Part shown: positions 12,169-63,854 of the stretch, piece by piece
Layout of the letters: each line of letters opens with the position of its first letter
Numbering within the stretch: the first letter of the stretch is position 1
Assembly (NCBI GenBank): GCA_025617745.1
Contig: CM046858.1
Span: 38,519,119 to 38,583,118, forward strand
Length of the DNA stretch: 64,000 bases
Source: Heliocidaris erythrogramma
Taxonomy: Eukaryota > Echinodermata > Echinoidea > Camarodonta > Echinometridae
Reading direction: 5' to 3'
Notes under the pieces: model-generated
What the model was told of the DNA's origin: nothing
What the model saw: only the letters and a program-made list of their open reading frames with translations
Databases searched by the model: none
Translations under genes and position numbers: made by a program

Positions 12169-12713
12169 GTTCATGTTTTCTACCGGTACCTACATGTAAC
12201 TTTCACACAAAGTATCACTTTTCTGTAAGTTGTAAGGGGCCTTGTTTTTTGCATGGGAGGCTATGTACATGTATGCTATCCAATACATGTACAATTGTAT
12301 GCATTAAGAAATATCAATAGTAGAGACTGAAAATTGTTGTGTCCACTTGGTACAAGATTTAAGTTAAATCCAAAACAAGATCATCGAGCCTCATACTATA
12401 CTGCTCTGTACATGTACATCTACACAAATATCAGAATCAGAGCAATGTAAAGCAACGAATGAGGTCTTGTAACAGGTCACCACATTCATTCAACCCCACA
12501 AACATTTAATAAGATCTTAATGTAGACTAGACTTTGTACAGTTGATTTGATCTTTAGAATTAAGATCTTACATTGTATGCTGTAAAGTAAATCATCCTTA
12601 CAATATGTAATTCACAGCAGTGACAGCACCATGACTTAACAAGTACCGGGGTACCAAAATAAATGTATTCGGCATGTTTCCAATTTCTGGGGTTTTTTTA
12701 ACCGTTTCTTTCC

Positions 12714-12757
12714 AGCGGAACAACCGACGATACAGAGAGACTGAAGCTTTTGGTCTA
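12714..12757. mobile_element. isolated end of a TAGAC-family element
   Basis: These 44 bp are almost the exact reverse complement of the left end of the element at 13,488. They run from AGCGGAACAACCGACG to CTTTTGGTCTA. The outer end faces right, so the body should lie to the left. I found no partner end preceded by the expected ATGTACTTG duplication, so the element is probably truncated. Confidence 0.55.
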
Positions 12758-13487
12758 ATGTACTTGCTGCCTGTCCAAATGGTTTACTGCAAGCTTCTGC
12801 AGAAACAGGCTGATAAGGGTCCGAGGGTCCGTGCCCAGAATTTTATTCAGCATATAAATTCTGTTTAATACTTTCCAGGACAGCTTCAAGGAGCTGTTGA
12901 AAGAAAGGCCCAAGGGAGCATCACTAAGGTTTCAAGGTCTTCTGTGGAAACAGCCTGATTGATGTTCAAGACTGGAACATACATTGTGCACATGTACATG
13001 TACATGTACAAGTAGCTGTCACATGTTGTTAACCATGCACATTATGTAGATCTACTGAAAAAGGAAGTCTCATCTCAATGACAATGTCTCATTCAGTCTC
13101 AGCACAACTTTTTAGTATGGCCAGGGGTCCTACATGTACATGTACATGGAAAGAGGCATGGGTCCAAAAGCTATGCACCCCGCAAATACAGACAATGTGT
13201 TCAATGCGCCAAATTTCTGCTGTGACTGAGCAACGAGGGTTGCAAAAATGCATTAGGTCTAGCCTAGATCTAACTGTTAGAACCTACATTATTTTTGTGC
13301 TAATTTTAGAAGGATCATTTACATGTGCATAGCTTGCCTTTAGGACCTTTTCATGATTTTGTTGAACAACATCTGACACGAGCATTGATATAAAGTTGAA
13401 AATGTTTGTTAAATATTGACATTCGTTTGCCCCAATTTTCTCAACGATTCAACTTCAGAATATTTAGAACCAAGGCAAGGGAGAATC

Positions 13488-14200
13488 TAGACCAAAAGCT
13501 TCAGTCTCTCTGTATCGTTGGTTGTTCCGCTGAGACTCCGTCTGGCTCCACTAGACCTCCGTACATAGAGACTGAATGCTCACATATCGCGTAGTGTGTT
13601 GACGGTCCTATCATTGAATAGTCTCCGCCCATTGACCTCTTTGATAGACGTGAGCGTACGCAAGTTGTAGACGTATGTGGTGCAGATAATAGACCCCGGA
13701 ACCGGAAGCGGTTCTCGGGGAAAAATCATCATTTTATTATTTCTCTGTGTGTTTGTGTGTGTAGCATTGCATTCAGTGGCGTACCCGTTAACAGTGCAGT
13801 ACCGTACAGTAACGTTACAGTAACGTAACCGGAAGGTACGTAGCGAACATGGTAGCGAACTCGTAGCCGGCTGCTCGGTAAGTCCTAATTCTATTTCTAA
13901 TTTTTACCTTATCTAATAATCTAGTTCTACTTTAATTTTTTAAACTTTTAAATATATCAAATGTAAGCTAAATATGGTCTAGACCTTTCTAAGTTCAGTA
14001 AATACATCTACTATCTAGATCTTTTTCTAAAATAGTGAAAAACTAATTCCGACCTAAGCATAGGTCGGCTGTTCGGACACCTTGTTGGTGATATATGGCC
14101 TGGGTGTACCGTCTGTCTATGCCTATGCCGGCTATGGGGAAGGTTGAGAAATGTCAGAAATATTAAAGATTTCCCCGTAACAGACGGTTATTTCTGTCTA
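13488..14200. mobile_element. TAGAC-ended DNA element, 713 bp, 9-bp target duplication
   Basis: The element starts TAGACCAAAAGCTTCAGTC and ends, in inverted sense, TAGACAGAAATAACCGTCTG. It is flanked by a perfect 9-bp direct repeat GGGAGAATC (13,479-13,487 and 14,201-14,209). The same two end types recur at 63,405-63,547 in opposite orientation. Nine-base duplications are typical of Mutator-like elements, but the family assignment is inference. No transposase is encoded. The interior holds two CCGGAAG (ETS-type) words near 13,700 and 13,830 and a strong splice-donor-like CTCG-GTAAGT near 13,880, so it may carry promoter-like cargo. Confidence 0.7.
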
Positions 14201-14378
14201 GGGAGAATCTAGGTTTAGGTAAAGAAATTTGCATAAACTAGTAGGCCTACCCCATCATACTTTTAAAATTTAAGTTAAAACTTTTTCAACAAAATGTTCA
14301 TGTCATAGTTCATACTCTGGTCCAATAGGCAATAGGCCTAGCCCTAGGTTCACCTGCTCAGCTCCTTGCATGCAACTA

Positions 14379-28810: not shown

Positions 28811-31800
28811 GTAGGTTTTTCATTTTACATATTGCACATAGTCAGTGAGTTCTCAATATATACATTTTTTGTCACTAAATGTCACAGTACATCTATTATT
28901 AATTATCGAAGTATAAAGTCTCGTCCGTCGTGGTTCACGGGCCATAAACTTAAGGCTACACCAGCGCAGCCCGAGCCTAGTGTCTGCGGACTATCACCGG
29001 CGGGGTTGCGCTCGGGCTGATGGCTGGGGCCCGTTTGCCGGCGCTAATTTACTTTCGCACCGGGTAGCCAAAATTTTATTTAATCACATAGCTCAGGGTT
29101 AGGGTTTGTGGTTAAGGAAACCCAGGGTAACCTGGGTTATATAGTACCCAAACTATGATGTGATGAAATAAAATTTTGAGTATTTGGGTAGGCCTAGCTA
29201 CCTGGAGTCCTGGTGGGAAAGTAAATTAGTGCCCGTTTGCCGAGTTGTGACTCTGTCTGAGCTGAGACTGGGACAGAGTCTGACTCTGAGTGAGTAAGGA
29301 TAAGGAGAGGAAAAATGTCTTTGTTTCTTGTACTTGAAGTCCGGATTTTAGACTATGTTGAGCTAGGATCAGGATGAGGATGTTTACACTGCTTTGTAGT
29401 CAAATCGCAGGTGGGTCTTTTCAATATCCGCTACATGTATTGTAGGTACGACACAAATAATTTACATGGTCTATACTCTGATGGTCATGGACAGGCACAT
29501 GACGGGTGGGTGTGAGTGTTAAAAGAAATGTTGATTGAAAAATGGTGTTCATTTGGCAAATAGATCTAGAAAAAGTAGAAGTCTATTGTTACTAGACTAG
29601 ACAAACGGGTGTACCTGAACTTTCTCACTTTAGGTAAAGCCAAATATATGTAGACTTTCTACATGTATGCAATTAATCTTGCCAAATTTCATTAAATGTA
29701 AGAATTCATTCACCTCGTCCTAGAGATTACTCTCATTTTATTCTTCCATCCCATTTTGAACTCATTTTAGTTCATTACAATACATTTATGCTTTCCACAT
29801 ATCTTTGACATTGCTGACCTTCAGACATGATCTGTGGTCTGTGTATTGCAAAGGATTGCCACAGTAATCATCTTCATAAGTTCTGTTTTATTTGTTCTTT
29901 TCAGGAGCAAGAAAGACGACGATGGTGCTAGTAAAAGTCAAAAGTCGACAAAGATTAAGATCAACAGGGATGCCTCCAAGTTGATATCAGGATCATCAAA
30001 GAAGGCTTATGAATCACAGACAGTCGAGTCTGATTCCACAAAAAGCACTAAGCAACATCTTGATGAATCCAATGCAGGAGACAGCAGTAAAATAAAGAAA
30101 CTCATGAAGCTGTATGAGGAAGATACATCAACTGCAGCAGGGAAAGAGGGAAGTGTATCTGTCAACTTAAATTTTGATAAATCTGTACAGAAGAGAACAA
30201 CAGATGATCCTGCAACAGATGGACTATCTAGCAAAGAGCAGGATGGGACAAAGACTATGATAAGCTCTGGATGGACAAAGGTGGTGAAAGAAGAGTCCAC
30301 AAAAGTTGAGCCTCAGTTCAAGAGCTTATTGTTGAGCAAAAAAGTTGGTGCAGAGAAGAGTGTACCTATGTTGGGTGATAAGAAAATGATCAAGATAAAC
30401 ATCCAAACTAAATTGCTAGAGTTGCCACAAGAACCGGAGAAGGTGGCAAGAAATGCATCTGACTCGGACTCGGATAGCAGTAGTGGTGATGACAGTGACG
30501 ATAGTGACAATGAAAATCAGGTTGTAGATGGCTTGCCATGGAGGACCATTTTGGAAGATGGAGAGCTGACGCCATCATCAGATGAGGAGGAAGAAAAACT
30601 GGAGGAAGATGAGGGAATGGTGAAAGGTGAAAATGTGGAGAAGAGTATTGAAGAGAAGGAAGAAGTCGTGGAAAAGAAGGGGGAAGGAAAGAAAAAGTCC
30701 TCCAAACACAAGCAGAAGAGCAAACACAAGAAGCACAAACATAAAAAGAGCAAAAAGAAAAAGAGTAAACACAAGCACAAAGACAAAAAGAAGGATAGTA
30801 CTTCTGGTTCGAAGAATGATGGAAGCACTATGTCTGAACAAAGGAAAAGAGAAGAAAAAGATTTGACAGTATCAGGAAATGAAGCAATCAACTCGAAACA
30901 TAAAGGAGAGAAAACAAGCTCAAGCAGGAGAAGGAGCAAAGATGAAAAGCAAAAGGAATCGCGGCAGAAAGATGAAGCATTGCAGGATAAGAAAGGCAGG
31001 AGTAGTTCTAGTTCAAGTAGAAAAACAAGTGAAGAGAGGGAAGGAAGGGGGTCGAGGAATGATAAAATCTTGAAAGAAGATGCTACAATGGATATAAAGA
31101 CCAAAACTGAAGAGGGAAAGGAGAAATCTAGTAGAAGTCACAGTAAAAGCAGAAGTAGCAGCAAGGAAAAGAGTCATTCTAAGGATGTGGCAGAAGAAAA
31201 GATTAAAAGAAAAGAGGATATTGGAGAGAAGATTACAGAAGGAAAGGAACCAAATAGGGATGAAGAAGAGAAGAAGAAAAGATATGAAGAGAAAACTGAT
31301 GAGAAACATGAAAGAAGGTCGAAGAGTAGTGAGAAAGTGTCCCACAGAGGAACTAGTGAAAAACCAGAGAAAGCTGAAGAGGATGATAAACGTGTGCCTT
31401 TATCTGAAAAATCAGAAGGAGTTGCTAGTGGTACTAAAGAAAAGCAATCTGTACGTCATAAGGAAAAACATATAGAAAACCTGGGATGTGATGACAAAGA
31501 CAATGGTACCACTCTGTTACTTGAAAAGGAAAAAACTGCCAAGATGGATTCAAAAGAAGAAAGCAGGACTGTCGGAGAAAGTACAAATTCTAACAGTGCA
31601 GGAACTAGTGTCACCATAACCTTTTCCAATAATGCTACTTCAAGACCTCATATAGGCAGGAGAGGTGATGCAAGTCACAGAAGTGAAGAGTATAGTCATG
31701 ATGATAGGAGAATGCAAAAAGAAAAGACACAAGAAGAGGACAGTGGGAAAGGGGATAGAAGAGAGGAGGAGAAAAGGGATGGAACAAAGGAGAAGAGTCG

Positions 31801-34800
31801 TCATGATGAAAGTAGAAAAGGAGAAAAGAGACACAAAGAAAAGGGAAAGGACAAGGATGATAAAAAGCGTCGCCACTCTAAGAAGCATCAGGTATCGACC
31901 AAAGTCAAGATAGACCATCTGGAGCATGACTTTCCATCTGCTGAAGAATTTGCTGAGGATTCAGGTGATAAGGTCCAGTCAAAAAAGGATGACATGGAAA
32001 ATGAGATATCTGTCTCAGATAAGGACAATACCTCTGGAATCCAAGCAGCTCCTGCAGATGGTATTCAAGTAGTTGTGCCACCATTGGAAGATGCCCCAGC
32101 AGAAAGTGCTCTCAGAGCAAAAGAGAACTTGAAGGAAGAAAGTAGATCAACAGAGAGTACAAATACTTTGACAGAAGCCACCGCTGCAGCGAATGTGAGT
32201 GATTCCTCAACAAGCCTGTCCCATGCAGAAACATCTGAAGTGACTCTGGAGAAACATGCATTCCCCAGTGATGTGGATGACAAAAATAGTGCTACTATGG
32301 CTTCTGCTAAGCAGTTAGAGCACATTGGTGATATAAGGGACTTGAAAACAGGTGCTGAAAAGCTTGAGAGTGGTTCCCCCAAAGCAGAGAAAGGTTTGAA
32401 GATGGGCAAAAAGACTTTTGTTGATGTTGATAATTCAGAAGCGATTGACGACAAAGAAGCTAAACTCTCAAAAAGTATGGATGGCAAAAAGATTGCAGGT
32501 AGAAAAGAAGACTCATCTAGCAGTGAACAGAAAGAAGAAGGTGCTGTGAGTACAACTTCATCCTCAGAAAAAGCTGTCAAGGATGTTGAGTCTGGTGAGA
32601 AGAAGGTGGAGAGTAATAAGGTTAAAGAAAAATCAACTGACAAATCTTCAAAGAAGAGGAAGAAAGACAAATCCGATAATAAAGAGGAAGGAGCAGTTGA
32701 CAGTGAAATTGAAGAAGGTGAAATCATTAAAAAACACAAGAAGAGCAAGAAGAAAGATAAGAAGAAAGATAGAAATGAGAGTGATAAAAAAGACAGAAAG
32801 GAGAGAGACAGAAGTGAACACAGAGATAAAAAACACAAGAGGCGGCACTCCGAATCACGTTCAGAGTCGCGTTCACACTCTCGTTCTCACAAACGGCACA
32901 AAGGATCACGTTCCAAATCACCCTCTGATGATGATGGTGATAGCGATATAAGCATTGGAAAAACCAAAATGGTAGAAAAGAGTTATTTCAGTGAGTCGAG
33001 AGGCTGCTGGGTGACCCGGATGGTTCCTAAGGAAGACGATACAAGCTCTTCTTCTGGATATGATGATGGAAACGAACCTTATGACATTGGGGACACCTAC
33101 ATTCGTCATCCTCCTCATGACAGAAGAAGCGTCTTTGATAGACTCGGTGGCGGCAGTGGTGGCAGTAGTAGGGGTTGTTTCGAGGACCGGTTCGATAGGC
33201 ATTCAAACTATGGGTACAGACGTAGACGGGGACGTTCCTATTCAAGGTCACGCTCTAGGTCAAGATCCCCCAAGTTCCAGATTGACAAGAAGAAGTTGTT
33301 GGAGATTGCTAAAGCTAATGCCCTACAGAGAATGAGAGCAGGGGAGCTGCCAGCTAACTTGCCTATCCCTGAATCCATGAAGAAAGCAGCTGATTCATGT
33401 GAGTCAATTCCTATTCTTGTATCAGTTTGTACCTTGTGAATATGATTTACATGTATTCATTGGCAGTGAATGTGGCAATGATGTTCAGTATAGTGAAGCA
33501 GAATTATTTTTCTAATTTTTGTACATCATTTCAAGTGCCTTACCACTGTTTGTAATCCACCTCTAAAGAATGTTAAATGCAAACTTTGTTTCATTGTTTC
33601 ATTGACTTACCAGGTCTTCTATTTGTCTTTAGATTTCAAGCACTGATGTCAGATAGCATTTTCATTTCTTTGTGAAACTGAGAACATTGCATTTATTCTT
33701 AAGAAATAGTGCTAATGATAATGAAAATTTTTATCGGCTATTTAATGTATATAAGATTGTAGGTAAATTAAATCCTGCAACTGTGGTTAAGGCTAGTTTT
33801 AATCTTCACACAAGTAGGAAATCGTGACACCTACATGTATGGACAGATATTAGTTAAGAGGGTTTGTTTTTCATATACAGGGGCTCTGAGTTTGGACAAA
33901 CTGCCCTCAGCCCTCATCTTTTGTTTTCCGTGTTCTTGCATTGACATGTTCCTGTTGTAATTTATCATACAGTTGAAGTGAATGAATCGATCCAGAAGTT
34001 CACCGACCGCTGCAAGGCACTGGCTAATCTTCAAGGTGGCAGTTCTGATGATGACTCCCCAGTTAACAGACCTATAGGTTCTGACGATGAGGATGAGGAT
34101 GGGAGTGAGAGTCAGAAGCCGTTTGTGAGACATCCTTTCAAGGTCAAAGAGGCTGCTCCCATCATCATGAACATCAGGGTAAAGAACATGAACACTTTGG
34201 ATATTGCTGTTATATTCTGTGTGACAAAGACCTGTAGAGGTACATGTACCTTCAGGGCTGGTCTGACCTGATCAACAACACTAATGATGAAAACATTCAA
34301 AATCACACACCTGTTGTTAATGTTGAAAGGCATTAAAAATCATTGTTGTAGGTCCCATCTCAAATCATTTATACCAATTAGCCTCCCTCAACAATTTTAT
34401 CATCTTGTTGGGATCACTCGGTGAGCGATTTTCTTAAGGACACTTATCATCTTGTTGGCATCAAGACAACAGACCTGTGAGTCAATATCTGTGAGTCAGT
34501 CATTCCACTCTTTTGATGTGATGTCAAAATACTTGTATATGAAGGGTATGTGATGCCCCACTATTTTGGTTTATAATATCCGTTGAGACCTTGATTCTCG
34601 TATGTCGAAACCTTTATTACCATTTTAACGATTGAATTACATGTATATAACTAACCATTGCTTATCTTACTTGAAGTATGCTTTAATGACTTTGAAAACT
34701 TGCTTGGTTTATTTTTTAGAATGCCGTCCAGATACCTGTGGCGAGTAAGGACAATCTGAGAGTTCAGTTCCCAGTGTCCAGTGGCTCCCAACATCGCAGG

Positions 34801-40800: not shown

Positions 40801-41695
40801 TGAATACTGCCCCAATAGAAATGTTTGCCAGATTAGGTAATTTCCTTATGATTTTGCTTGTGTAAGTAATATTGTAATAGGATTCTTCTAGTGCAGTAAG
40901 TGTTTTATTTCAGACTATGTCAGTATTGCTCACACTCTAATTCATTTTTTATTTGTCTTTTTCATATCATTTTCAGGTCTGGTAGCTGCAGAGGAGAAGC
41001 CTAAGAAGAAAGGAGACGTGTCGAAGGTGATCCGTAAGGACCTGTCCGGAAAGCACCCTGTGATGGCTCTTAATGAACTCTGTAATAAGAGGAGATGGGG
41101 CAAACCCAACTTTGAAGTAGTGAGAGAGGACGGTCCACCTCACAAGAAGAACTTTGTCTTCAAGGTAAACATCATAGCCATAGGTATCTCGTCTGCCCGG
41201 CAGAATGATGCAAATACGAATTTTGATCACATTTTTTGTTGTGTAATGAAAGAATAAAGAAATGGTATCAAGAGATCTACATGGAACATATTACTGGTAT
41301 AATCTTAGACGGTGTATGAACTATTAAAAGTGTTTTACATTTGATTTTTTGTAGTCAACGAAAGGTCAAGACTTTAAAATGCATGCTATATGCATGCTAC
41401 ATCTGCTTTAAACTTCCCTATTGTTTTTTTTTTTACTTTTTAAGTTGTAATCTATGATATTGTTGACCATATAGTTATTATAGACTCTCTAAATGCCAGG
41501 GCAGCTTTAAATTGTTTGAATGTGCAAAAACTGGTGGTAAATGTTAAACACTTTTCATAATTGTCTATTTTCGTGTGCCAGGTCCGAATCCGGAATGACG
41601 AGTACATTCCAACCGTGCCCTCGGGGAACAAGAAAGATGCCAAAGCCATGGCTGCAACAGTCGCTCTACAGAAGATGGGACTTCTACCATCGTGA
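28731..41695 (+). CDS. SON: SON, nuclear-speckle splicing cofactor (whole coding span, 10 exons)
   Basis: SON is a scaffold protein of nuclear speckles that promotes splicing of weak introns. Ten exons join in frame: 28,731-28,810; 29,905-33,398; 33,973-34,178; 34,720-34,854; 35,204-35,503; 37,043-37,153; 37,674-37,796; 40,267-40,414; 40,977-41,164; 41,582-41,695. They give 1,632 residues (human SON, about 2,426). Visible in order: an acidic, Lys/His/Ser-rich low-complexity region, RS-dipeptide tracts near residues 1005-1150, the conserved KKLLEIAKANA segment, QFPVSSGSQHRRKEE, a G-patch (MHKMGWKQGEGLGKN, about 1498) and a C-terminal dsRNA-binding domain (KDLSGKHPVMALNELCNKR ... KKDAKAMAATVALQKMGLL). 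The G-patch followed by a dsRBD is diagnostic for SON. The large DPYRL/ERSMM-type repeats of mammalian SON are absent. All junctions are GT-AG and phase-consistent. Its convergent neighbour is DONSON. Confidence 0.93.
28811..29904 (+). other. SON intron 1
   Basis: A GT-AG intron of 1.1 kb. Apart from a small inverted-repeat element at 29,041-29,230 nothing coding is seen. Confidence 0.75.
29041..29230. mobile_element. 190-bp MITE in SON intron 1 with flanking 12-bp repeat
   Basis: Inverted ends CTAATTTACTTTCGCACC and GGTGGGAAAGTAAATTAG lie inside a perfect 12-bp direct repeat GCCCGTTTGCCG (29,029-29,040 and 29,231-29,242). The direct repeat reads as a target-site duplication. Inner arms include CAAAATTTTATTTAATCACA and its complement. 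The family is not recognised. Confidence 0.75.
29905..33398 (+). CDS. SON: SON coding exon 2 (large low-complexity/RS exon)
   Basis: A single 3,494-bp exon encoding residues about 27-1191. It is dominated by Lys, Glu, Ser, Asp and Arg. A Lys/His block (KHKKHKHKKSKKKKSKHKH) lies near residue 300 and RS tracts (SESRSESRSHSRSHKRHK; RGRSYSRSRSRSRSPK) near the end. The last 40 residues (DKKKLLEIAKANALQRM...) match the conserved stretch after the RS domain of human SON. The human gene likewise carries most of its protein in one giant exon. Open frames on the opposite strand are shadows of this composition. Confidence 0.93.
33973..34178 (+). CDS. SON: SON coding exon 3
   Basis: Encodes NESIQKFTDRCKALANLQGG..., then an acidic run and RHPFKVKEAAPIIMNIR. 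This aligns with human IEELTEKCKQIAQSK...HHPFKLSEPKPIFFNLN. Acceptor ATACAG, donor GTAAAG; phase 1 in, phase 0 out. Confidence 0.92.
34720..34854 (+). CDS. SON: SON coding exon 4
   Basis: Encodes NAVQIPVASKDNLRV then QFPVSSGSQHRRKEE, matching human KEFPVSSGSQHRKKEA, and ends PYGQWT (human VYGEWV). Acceptor TTTTTTAG, donor GTGAGT. Confidence 0.92.
35204..35503 (+). CDS. SON: SON coding exon 5 (Pro/Ala/Thr-rich linker)
   Basis: Encodes AVEKPEPKPEPKP, then a Pro/Ala/Thr-rich linker built of ATTP/ATTA-like repeats, and ends KVFEDAPGF. The linker is much longer than in human SON and is probably disordered. Acceptor TTAACAG, donor GTGAGT. Confidence 0.9.
35504..37042 (+). other. SON intron 5
   Basis: It contains a lone end of the TTAAAGATGAAGTTGAG family near 35,529, a diverged family D MITE at about 35,560-35,707, a dispersed repeat with TTGTATAGCGTATATCACC at about 36,182-36,275, and a LINE fragment at about 36,400-36,720. 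Confidence 0.6.
36400..36720 (+). mobile_element. LINE (CR1/Jockey-like) reverse-transcriptase C-terminal fragment
   Basis: One open frame reads SLTHRCQVAAACVFYKMHTE, then PPPLERRRVTRAS and SFIHTASRVWNSLPNHV. The run from (S)L.HR..VA..CVFYK to RSF..TASR.WNSLP is typical of the end of LINE ORF2 proteins in marine invertebrates. Only the tail is present, as usual for 5'-truncated LINE copies. It lies in SON intron 5 in the sense orientation. Clade assignment is tentative. Confidence 0.65.
37043..37153 (+). CDS. SON: SON coding exon 6
   Basis: Encodes SYDIGQIVSARLKAARALQ and then SNPNNVEALTVLHHSQKQ, matching human PVDISTAMSERALAQKRLSE...LEAMSMLNRAQER. Acceptor TTTTGCAG, donor GTCAGT, phase 0. 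Confidence 0.9.
37674..37796 (+). CDS. SON: SON coding exon 7
   Basis: Encodes IQTWAHSSKKPGLFTGSTD... and ends KNQAWIKK, matching human IDAWAQLNSIPGQFTGSTG...GAQAWIKK. Donor GTTCGT is weaker than the other junctions. Confidence 0.9.
37797..40266 (+). other. SON intron 7
   Basis: The longest SON intron, 2.5 kb. No exon or clear transposon was recognised, only AT-rich sequence. Open frames near 39.5 kb lack motifs. Confidence 0.55.
40267..40414 (+). CDS. SON: SON coding exon 8 (G-patch)
   Basis: Encodes DMFLTAAPVNTNIGRSL, then the G-patch MHKMGWKQGEGLGKN and KEGALNPLLLEIKTDRQ. Human: MRKMGWREGEGLGKNKEG. Starts after CCCTACAG, ends in phase 1 before GTCAGT. Confidence 0.93.
40977..41164 (+). 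CDS. SON: SON coding exon 9 (dsRBD, first half)
   Basis: Encodes GLVAAEEKPKKKGDVSKVIR and then KDLSGKHPVMALNELCNKR, PNFEVVREDGPPHKKNFVFK, which is the alpha1-beta1-beta2 part of the double-stranded-RNA-binding domain. Human: KDLSGKHPVSALMEICNKRR. Confidence 0.93.
41582..41695 (+). CDS. SON: SON coding exon 10 (dsRBD, second half, stop)
   Basis: Encodes VRIRNDEYIPTVPSGNKKDA then KAMAATVALQKMGLLPS and TGA, the KKxAK..AA helix that ends the dsRBD. It stops soon after MGLLPS, whereas human SON continues about 19 residues after MGLVPK. The stop codon lies inside the first unit of a three-copy repeat (41,682-42,008). Confidence 0.92.
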   Translation, partial: VRIRNDEYIPTVPSGNKKDAKAMAATVALQKMGLLPS

Positions 41696-46984: not shown

Positions 46985-48660
<1,676 letters not shown>

Positions 48661-62486: not shown

Positions 62487-62600
62487 CATCGTTTCATCAA
62501 TTAACCGTCATAACATATAAAGTACAAGTCTGCTGACATTGAAACCCATGTTAATTTTGATACATGTATGCGTTTCAATGGGATGTCGGTGAACTTGTAC
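62487..62600. mobile_element. short palindromic MITE related to 57,136-57,233
   Basis: Left words GCATCGTTTCATCAATTAA and AAAGTACAAGTCTGCTGACA face right words GATGTCGGTGAACTTGTACT, giving an imperfect hairpin. It abuts the next element, whose 9-bp duplication (GTACTTGGG) lies at this element's edge. Confidence 0.5.
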
Positions 62601-62605
62601 TTGGG

Positions 62606-63300
62606 TAGACCGAAATTTTCTGTCTCCAGTACGTTAGCCTCTTATCTGGGTAGGGTCGGCTACTACTTGGAGACAGAAGCCGTCCTATCACTTTGCTGTG
62701 CAAAATTTGTCTATGGCGTTGTGCCGTTCTAGTCTCGTACAAGGCAAAATGATTATGAAGGAAAAAATACGATAAATTTATTACGAACTCGTGCACATTG
62801 ATTTCAAAACGGTTATTTCTTTAACATTAAATATGTTTGTTTAGTGTTAAAAAAATAACCGTTTTGAAATCAATGTGCACGAGTTCGTAATGAATTTATC
62901 GTATTTTTTCCTTCATAATCATTTTGCCTTGTACGAGACTAGAAGCTCGGGTAACGGTTTGAATACGGCTGCAGGATTTTCGAACGGAGAAGACCTTGGA
63001 CCCTGAATTACATGAAAAAGGAGCATTAAATGGATCATTTGGTCAAATTGGTATGTTGAACAGATTAAGTATATCATATATGAATTAGAGCCTAGGCCTT
63101 ATGATTATTTTTAAAAAAATACAGAGGAAAAATGATTTTTTCCTACTGTTCCACTTCCAGCAGGCACAACGCCATATAAAAGGCATAGGGCCTAGACAAA
63201 TTTTGCACAGCAAAGTGATAGGACGGCTTCTGTCTCCAAGTAGTAGCCGACCCTACCCAAATAAGAGGCTAACGTACTGGAGACAGAAAATTTCGGTCTA
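62606..63300. mobile_element. TAGAC-ended DNA element, 695 bp, 9-bp target duplication
   Basis: Ends TAGACCGAAATTTTCTGTCT and the inverted AGACAGAAAATTTCGGTCTA. The perfect 9-bp repeat GTACTTGGG flanks it (62,597-62,605 and 63,301-63,309). Outer arms of about 130 bp enclose a second, inner inverted repeat at about 62,730-62,944. The inner arms each contain AACTCGTGCACATTGATTTC or its complement. No coding sequence. Confidence 0.8.
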
Positions 63301-63404
63301 GTACTTGGGTAGTTGGGAGCTCGTAGTCGTACAGCTAGCTTCGTACTGCAGCGGAGCAAACTCCAGCCTCCAGGAAGCTCCGCGGCCGCCGGCTGGAGTT
63401 ACAG

Positions 63405-63547
63405 TAGACAGCTGAAAACCGTCTGTTTCGGAGGAGTCTTTTAACATTTTCTTATTTTTACCTTCTCCTCCTACACAAGGAGGTGTAGTGAAGCAAGACG
63501 TAGTCCAGTGGAACACCCGACGAACAGAGACTGAAGCTTTCGGTCTA
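63405..63547. mobile_element. TAGAC-ended DNA element, 143 bp, 9-bp target duplication
   Basis: Starts TAGACAGCTGAAAACCGTCT and ends ACTGAAGCTTTCGGTCTA, with a perfect 9-bp flanking repeat GAGTTACAG (63,396-63,404 and 63,548-63,556). Its two end types match those of the 713-bp element at 13,488 in opposite orientation. It is an internally deleted member of the same family. Confidence 0.75.
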
Positions 63548-63854
63548 GAGTTACAGCGGAGCGCGGAGCTCGCTCAGCTTACTCAAACTCAATTAATCCC
63601 TAACTAATTTACATGAATTTATAAATAGGTCTCACTCAGAGATAACCGCCCATTTCAATCTACACTACTCACAAACTCAATATCTGATCTCCACAGAACG
63701 AATTAACCTCAGCTAGCTGAGAACGTCCAAGACCATCGTCCAACATAAACAACAAACACAACGAACTTCGATTCCAAAATATCCCGCAATTAATCTTGAC
63801 GGCAGGTGGCGCTCTTAAATTTACTCTTTTTGCATGCTGCGCGCGAGGCTCTTT

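Follow-up and report, generated by a model that had tools for sequence, protein, structure and literature searches.

Young TAGAC-ended non-autonomous transposons in Heliocidaris erythrogramma, with 9-bp duplications at a palindromic target and neighbouring copies exactly 9 bp apart

The genome of Heliocidaris erythrogramma holds a real, young and abundant group of non-autonomous DNA transposons that end in TAGAC and are flanked by 9-bp target duplications. We think it rather likely that the group is mobilized in trans, duplicates 9 bp at a palindromic target and stacks at its own tips. The palindrome and the exact stacking go beyond the first observation, which concerned three insertions in one stretch of DNA, and are the parts worth following.

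That stretch, 64,000 nt long and called the window throughout, was the subject of a preliminary description reporting three TAGAC-ended insertions with perfect 9-bp repeats, and all three are present (Table 1). When each of the 1024 possible five-mers was tried as an inverted tip, with the two tips up to 10 kb apart within the window, TAGAC was the sole five-mer with three separate pairs having exact 9-bp repeats. The 398 TAGAC pairs in the window lead to a chance expectation of about 0.0015 (398/4^9), against the three seen; TCGCA also gave three pairs with 9-bp repeats, but these overlap and all lie inside one short stretch. An Rfam search of the window returned 0 matches.

Table 1. Target duplications, elements and lone end of the TAGAC group in the window
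Feature	Position	Strand	Basis or remarks
Lone A end, el1 type	12713..12757	-	45 bp, 97.8% to element 1
Left target duplication GGGAGAATC	13479..13487	.	sequence read and five-mer tip scan
Element 1, el1 type, 713 bp	13488..14200	+	A tip TAGACCAAAAGCTTCAGTC left, B tip TAGACAGAAATAACCGTCTG right
Right target duplication GGGAGAATC, then TAG	14201..14209	.	sequence read and five-mer tip scan
Left target duplication GTACTTGGG	62597..62605	.	sequence read and five-mer tip scan
Element 2, el2 type, foldback, 695 bp	62606..63300	.	TAGACCGAAATTTTCTGTCTCC at each end
Right target duplication GTACTTGGG, then TAG	63301..63309	.	sequence read and five-mer tip scan
Left target duplication GAGTTACAG	63396..63404	.	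sequence read and five-mer tip scan
Element 3, el3 type, 143 bp	63405..63547	-	B tip TAGACAGCTGAAAACCGTCTG left, A tip TAGACCGAAAGCTTCAGTC right
Right target duplication GAGTTACAG	63548..63556	.	sequence read and five-mer tip scan

As first described, the 13.5-kb and 63.4-kb copies (elements 1 and 3) each have an A tip at one end and a B tip at the other, the order being reversed between the two copies, and the two ends of each are different sequences. The 62.6-kb copy (element 2) differs in having the same A-like tip at its two ends and the long inverted arms of a foldback element: in a self-comparison its end arms of 123 bp match in inverted orientation at 95% (62606–62728 against 63179–63300), and a 218-bp inner palindrome (62727–62944) matches at 94%. 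The search that revealed these arms gave no inverted self-match in elements 1 and 3, which are thus not foldbacks. No transposase was recognized within the 713 bp of element 1, which has relatives on further stretches (L002, L006–L008 and several of L047–L061), and element 3 is a short version of 690-bp copies such as those on L001, L057 and L058. The lone end at 12,757 proved to be a real A end, for which no partner end with a matching repeat was found.

Across the genome (1.06 Gb in 26 contigs), the A tip (TAGACCRAAAGCTTCAGTC) has 1126 exact matches (572 and 554 by strand), the B tip (TAGACAGN{3,6}ACCRTCTGTT) 1178 (588 and 590) and the el2-type tip (TAGACCGAAATTTTCTGTCTCC) 462 (232 and 230); the reversed control of each search gave 0. 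Tip positions were taken from the first 100 matches of each search, covering contig 1 for A and B (7% of the genome) and contigs 1–3 for el2 (19%). The contig 1 sample for pairing comprised 89 of the 100 listed A tips, 53 of the 100 listed el2 tips (those within reach of the B list) and all 100 listed B tips, and each inward-facing tip was joined to the next tip. These 242 listed tips formed 63 A:B pairs, no A:A and no B:B pairs, 21 el2:el2 pairs and four mixed pairs, which can be explained by nesting; 66 tips stayed unpaired, and in a sample of 16 stretches several of the partners turned out to be mutated tips nearby. Among the listed pairs, A:B lengths are mostly near 130–160, 340–385 and 680–730 bp but extend to 18 kb, and el2 pairs mostly measure 660–690 bp. 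The elements with A and B ends fall into two subfamilies, an el1 type (TAGACCAAAAGC / TAGACAGAAATAACC) and an el3 type (TAGACCGAAAGC / TAGACAGCTGAAAACC), and within a single element the A and B ends have little sequence in common beyond TAGAC. The el2 foldbacks, with an A-like tip at both ends, make a third subfamily. The view of a single transposon group thus stands, although 'one family' is too simple a term for two A+B subfamilies and one foldback subfamily. A rare variant of the B tip, tried as the mark of a coding subfamily, was dropped at only three copies. Our literature search found no paper combining TAGAC with transposon terms.

The length of the duplication was read on 21 elements from 20 fetched stretches, taken in map order as the first unread A:B pairs of at most 1.6 kb and the first four el2 pairs, together with one el2 pair picked for its shortness. 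Sixteen have an exact 9-bp repeat, two have 9 bp with one mismatch, one has two mismatches and two have none. In the whole, non-random set of 38 elements with two flanks read, 28 have exactly 9 bp, one has 8 bp (L087) and nine have no exact repeat, so the 9-bp duplication originally claimed holds up, other or variable lengths having hardly appeared. The 28 exact duplications comprise 26 distinct 9-mers; L048 and L049 are copies of one insertion, because they share their flanks as well as the 9-mer. The rule is kept in long copies of 5.9 kb (AGTCATGTC), 2.1 kb (CGCTTAGTT) and 14.1 kb (GGTGCAAAT), and tip-to-tip intervals of 3.0, 3.6 and 18.2 kb have no exact 9-bp repeat. Copies with different target repeats reach 99.6% identity over about 690 bp (L001, L057, L058a), those of the 350-bp class up to 99.1% with the L048/L049 duplicate pair left out (L050 being at 95.0%), and el2 copies up to 99.0% (the short L066 being at 81.5%). 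Such likeness at different sites bears out the suggestion of a family active in this genome and, judged by sequence identity, the group was active recently.

Alignment of the 26 distinct sites reveals a palindromic target, RGCWN-G(N7)C-NWGCY, whose strongest bases lie outside the duplication, R(-5) G(-4) C(-3) W(-2) on the left and their mirror image on the right; the first base of the 9-mer is often G. In the left half, position -3 is C or T in all 26 sites (C in 21), -4 is G in 18 and -2 is W in all 26; the right half is weaker (W 21/26, G 18/26, C 15/26). Read separately, the two halves yield the same letters in mirror image, and the TAG noticed earlier after the target in two of the three window cases agrees with the start of the right half. 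Over eight half-site positions the sites score 159 of 208, with the motif scored on its own source sites and a neighbouring element forming one flank in two of the 26; 20,000 sets of 26 random window positions average 78.0 (sd 6.5) and never exceed 105. The A+B sites reach 126/160 and the el2 sites 33/48, which fits one enzyme for both. Palindromic target motifs that extend past the duplication are also described for Drosophila TIR and LTR elements, by up to 3 bp in the sections we drew on (PMC3276498), whereas here the strongest bases lie 3–4 bp outside and the motif reaches 5.

The tip itself resembles this target: TAGAC reads N-W-G-x-Y and so agrees with the right half at three of its four informative positions. 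We examined the spacing of outward-facing tips because of this resemblance. A genome-wide search with TTCGGTCTA-N{3,33}-TAGACCRAA gave 153 strand hits (reversed control 0), and the first 100 of these represent 59 places once those listed on both strands are counted once. Of these places, 44 have a gap of exactly 9 bp, as do 32 of 47 distinct spacers among the matches listed, and any other gap occurs at most three times. A second search, CTGTCTA-N{3,33}-TAGACCRAA, in which all 74 places were listed, found a gap of exactly 9 bp in 40 of the 74 (33 of 66 distinct) and any other gap at most five times; a count of 17 for its reversed control means that part of the remainder is background, and two of the 40 gap-9 places (TGGGGAAGG) resemble the interior of el1 rather than tips. 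Together, the listed gap-9 junctions of both searches comprise 62 distinct 9-mers with strands collapsed. Random insertion of about 1360 elements would yield some 0.003 abutting pairs, against the 84 gap-9 places listed. It thus appears that elements insert into the duplication flanking a copy already present, the tip of which is similar to half a target site.

Individual junctions have the arrangement that such insertion would leave. L058 is the one full chain read, a single abutting pair whose left and right outer flanks were both read: GAAAAGATG occurs there three times, at the outer side of an el3-type element, at its junction with an el1-type element and at the outer side of the latter. 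On L043 the shared 9-mer GGGTTAGCA lies left and right of an el2-type copy, and another el2-type end abuts on the left. Five compact cases, known from junction positions alone, have the same 9-mer at two successive junctions 88–718 bp apart, which is what an inner element with neighbours abutting at both ends would give; the case at C1:14.74 Mb is not a simple element, because its inner stretch begins and ends with tips of different subfamilies.

Could the target be a mere palindromic hot spot that is hit twice, with no role for the resident tip? We consider this unlikely. The motif is strong and resident insertions sit in good sites by definition, but its symmetrized information of about 6.8 bits corresponds to roughly a 100-fold preference (a rough estimate that leaves local hopping and open chromatin aside), which would raise the expectation from 0.003 to less than one, against the 84 listed gap-9 places. 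Recombination, or doublets transposed as one unit, is a still less probable origin of the 9-bp abutments. Among the matches listed, the same 9-mer does recur at distant places, GGGTTAGCA on three contigs and GTAAAAACC five times on contig 9, and arrays exist with periods of 1077 bp (C1:55.56 Mb) and about 2.9 kb; from the recurrence of the 9-mers, some abutments may stem from segmental duplication of a single event. Against a general explanation of this kind stand the 62 distinct 9-mers and the joining of two subfamilies, el3 and el1, around one 9-mer on L058, and recombination by itself offers no reason for 9 bp. The GGGTTAGCA junction was seen between two abutting tips at C2:45006934, C11:14909966 and C12:23935880, and this doublet may have moved as a unit.

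Directed insertion beside resident copies can be put as a model. A DDE transposase acting in trans would recognize the TAGAC tip and neighbouring bases, and insertion with a presumed 9-bp stagger would produce the duplication observed at RGCWN-G(N7)C-NWGCY. Since the TAGAC tip matches three of the four informative right-half bases, each insertion would leave a usable target at each flanking 9-mer. Later elements would land at that 9-mer and share it, giving chains of the form 'T e1 T e2 T' with the spacing that is observed, and the resident tip may help to retain the enzyme at the following target. Recombination may afterwards turn chains and nests into tandem arrays, a 259-bp array derived from el1 (L003–L005) and the 1077-bp array being possible examples.

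P elements likewise use their own 8-bp duplications as insertion sites. Comparable behaviour is described for IS30 of Escherichia coli, which in the sections available to us has dual targeting, to hot spots and to sites beside its own ends, and so forms adjacent copies; it is unlike the TAGAC group in being bacterial, in its 2-bp duplication and in its circle and junction intermediates (PMC9333248). By this analogy we propose, tentatively and with somewhat less than an even chance of being right, that the TAGAC group has a dual target choice like that of IS30, using palindromic sites as well as directed insertion beside its own ends through tip mimicry, that its chains seed satellites, and that foldback and asymmetric-end subfamilies share one enzyme, maybe of an undescribed type.

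Nested and tandem transposons are usually ascribed to chance or hot spots. A gap of exactly one target length is a sign of insertion next to a resident copy that can be counted; it has a simple sequence reason and can be checked in any genome by one spacing histogram. If the model is true, each insertion makes two further targets, copies grow into chains, and the choice of target is linked to the clustering of transposons and to the origin of satellite arrays.

A long copy encoding a MULE transposase, as the preliminary description had suggested looking for, was sought among the long tip-to-tip intervals. Long tip-to-tip copies do exist, but no transposase was recognized in those read. The autonomous candidates of 5.9 kb (L039), 3.4 kb (L043), 3.0 kb (L040), 3.6 kb (L006 and L041), 2.1 kb (L042), 14.1 kb (L044–L046) and 18.2 kb (L099/L100) were each rejected on this ground. 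Across these intervals the longest frames measure 114–335 aa, and the 5.9-, 14.1- and 18.2-kb copies, with longest frames of 114, 132 and 335 aa, contain no recognizable coding frame; the 335-aa frame, the only long one of the 18.2-kb copy, has a low-complexity sequence that Pfam does not match. The 18.2-kb interval, whose poly-G-rich flanks are not identical, is a copy of the 690-bp (el3) type holding about 17 kb of another inverted-repeat element (L099 592 to L100 8976), whose ends (CAGTAGGGGAGC) are inverted over about 640 bp and which shows an apparent ATTGT duplication. The 14.1-kb stretch between two el2 tips (C1:43028118–43042201) has an intact 9-bp duplication, no frame longer than 132 aa and an internal direct repeat with 3.56-kb spacing, 99.9% identical over 2.75 kb; it is possibly genomic DNA carried between two ends. 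Between A and B tips 3.6 kb apart near 3.251 Mb of contig 1 (L041 1–492) lies a fragment of a TatD-related DNase (PF01026), which is either part of a host gene flanked by two elements or a piece that was captured; the 9-mers there do not match.

The search for the enzyme was also made from the side of known transposase genes. The MULE model PF10551 has 31 matches in the genome. Thirty of these loci, fetched at about 3.2 kb each, contain no A, B or el2-like tip, and six of them widened by 3 kb on each side gave no TAGAC pair with a repeat in a tip-pair scan that covered these six and one 25-kb stretch. Sequences flanking the tips, compared with 215,578 bases around MULE genes (including 11 loci widened by about 3 kb on each side), gave matches of at most 12–16 bp. 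The MULE with the most alike copies could be delimited as an element of 14,967 bp (C5, about 7593499–7608465; L111, L069, L026, L070, L112), to which L027 and L028 are 99.4–99.8% identical over the stretches compared and which L025 matches over part. It has ends ACTGTCGG, long inverted repeats (ACTGTCGGCTAGCG...) of which the first 30 bp are perfect, an 8-bp duplication GGCACAGA and a frame of 861 aa, which in the part scanned has MULE and PHD domains. The TAGAC elements do not derive from this element, which has other ends and an 8-bp repeat; its delimitation shows that the method is able to find ends.

Three further models were run. The Merlin model PF12762 (DDE_Tnp_IS1595) has 52 matches in the genome, for example at C11:45233182, C15:539734 and C1:64030481, and the first eight listed lie in open frames of 359–512 aa, several with equal scores; a young, recently active Merlin group probably exists. 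The IS256-type model PF00872 has 0 matches, and the ZSWIM-type model PF21056 has nine, eight of which coincide with MULE loci. As sources of the enzyme, the MULE, Merlin, IS256-type and ZSWIM-type genes (31, 52, 0 and 9 matches) were set aside, none being linked to a mapped tip. A minisatellite near MULE locus M13, with units TAGACCGAA and TAGACAGAA, was discarded as a binding-site array, since it belongs to a separate dispersed repeat. The dispersed repeat with ATAGACAGAAGGTTCTATAG units (L073 564–712) has 1105 matches in the genome, often as inverted pairs about 1.6–1.9 kb apart, and is perhaps another foldback-like family.

Of the original classification as a non-autonomous MULE-type family, the non-autonomous part stands, with no transposase frame in the copies read, and the 9-bp duplications agree with it; the MULE identity itself found no anchor, none of the 30 MULE loci fetched having the tips. 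By analogy, a Mutator-like enzyme is still the most likely transposase, with about an even chance of being correct, a best guess founded on duplication length and the analogous Tm1 and Tetris elements. MULE duplications measure 8–11 bp in the part of the review cited (PMC6446971), commonly 9, and 28 of our 38 elements have exactly 9. The ends do not discriminate, because MULEs occur with and without terminal inverted repeats in the same source (PMC6446971); the A and B ends here are alike only at TAGAC, and el2 has 123-bp arms.

An enzyme of another or undescribed superfamily, such as a MULE-like outgroup missed by PF10551 or an intron-split enzyme, is possible, if somewhat doubtful. It would agree with the lack of a tip-linked gene for PF12762, PF00872 and PF21056 besides PF10551, and some enzyme must have existed recently because the copies are young; on the other hand, an ordinary autonomous copy may lie beyond the listed tips (contig 1 for A and B, contigs 1–3 for el2). 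A Merlin (IS1595-like) enzyme is quite unlikely: duplications of 8 or 9 bp are typical of that superfamily too, very unlike ends have been recorded in one of its families and 52 DDE_Tnp_IS1595 matches point to a probably recently active group, but the published ends, which are what we compared, begin with GG in the part of the account consulted (PMC8101967) against TAGAC at our exact duplications, and the contig 1 matches lie at least about 10 kb from any tip among the matches listed.

hAT and P elements have duplications of 8 or 7–8 bp. The duplication of the TAGAC group is mostly longer: one element of our 38 has 8 bp and 28 have 9, against the 8-bp duplication of hobo and the P element in the sections cited (PMC3276498).

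Tm1 Mutator/Foldback elements of root-knot nematodes likewise have mostly 9-bp duplications (45 of 53 are 8–10 bp long), a mix of MITE-like and foldback forms within the group and, in Tm1, two different 7-bp motifs at the outer ends; as far as the cited portion of the article goes, they are unlike the TAGAC group in that a form encoding the transposase is known, the end motifs are others and no clear consensus of the target was found (PMC3169594). The TAGAC group differs from them in its palindromic target and exact abutment, with no enzyme found. Tetris of Drosophila virilis, which we liken by its description, has foldback copies without conserved frames, no autonomous copy found, duplications of 8–10 bp and a part as building blocks of a satellite; it departs from the present group in having just three structurally complete copies, in the text available, and a variable duplication length (PMC4079207). 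The non-TIR MULEs Curupira and VANDAL share 9-bp duplications and little or no terminal inverted repeat, but carry a MULE transposase in the sections consulted (PMC6446971), and none is linked to TAGAC tips.

The stretches read contained some unrelated features. Another element with 9-bp duplications has unlike ends, TAGCCCCGGGACGCTGCC... / ...GGCAGTAA, each with a hairpin-like inverted repeat (L039 406–1149, L002 1546–2255, L007 662–1371). At 47363–48416 the window holds a broken Tc1/mariner transposase, whose HTH domains and DDE_3 lie in two frames that overlap. An open frame of 1202 aa, which is rich in K, E and S and has no match in Pfam, occupies 29831–33439 of the window, and a double-stranded RNA binding domain lies downstream of it at 40892–41257; together they may represent a SON-like gene.
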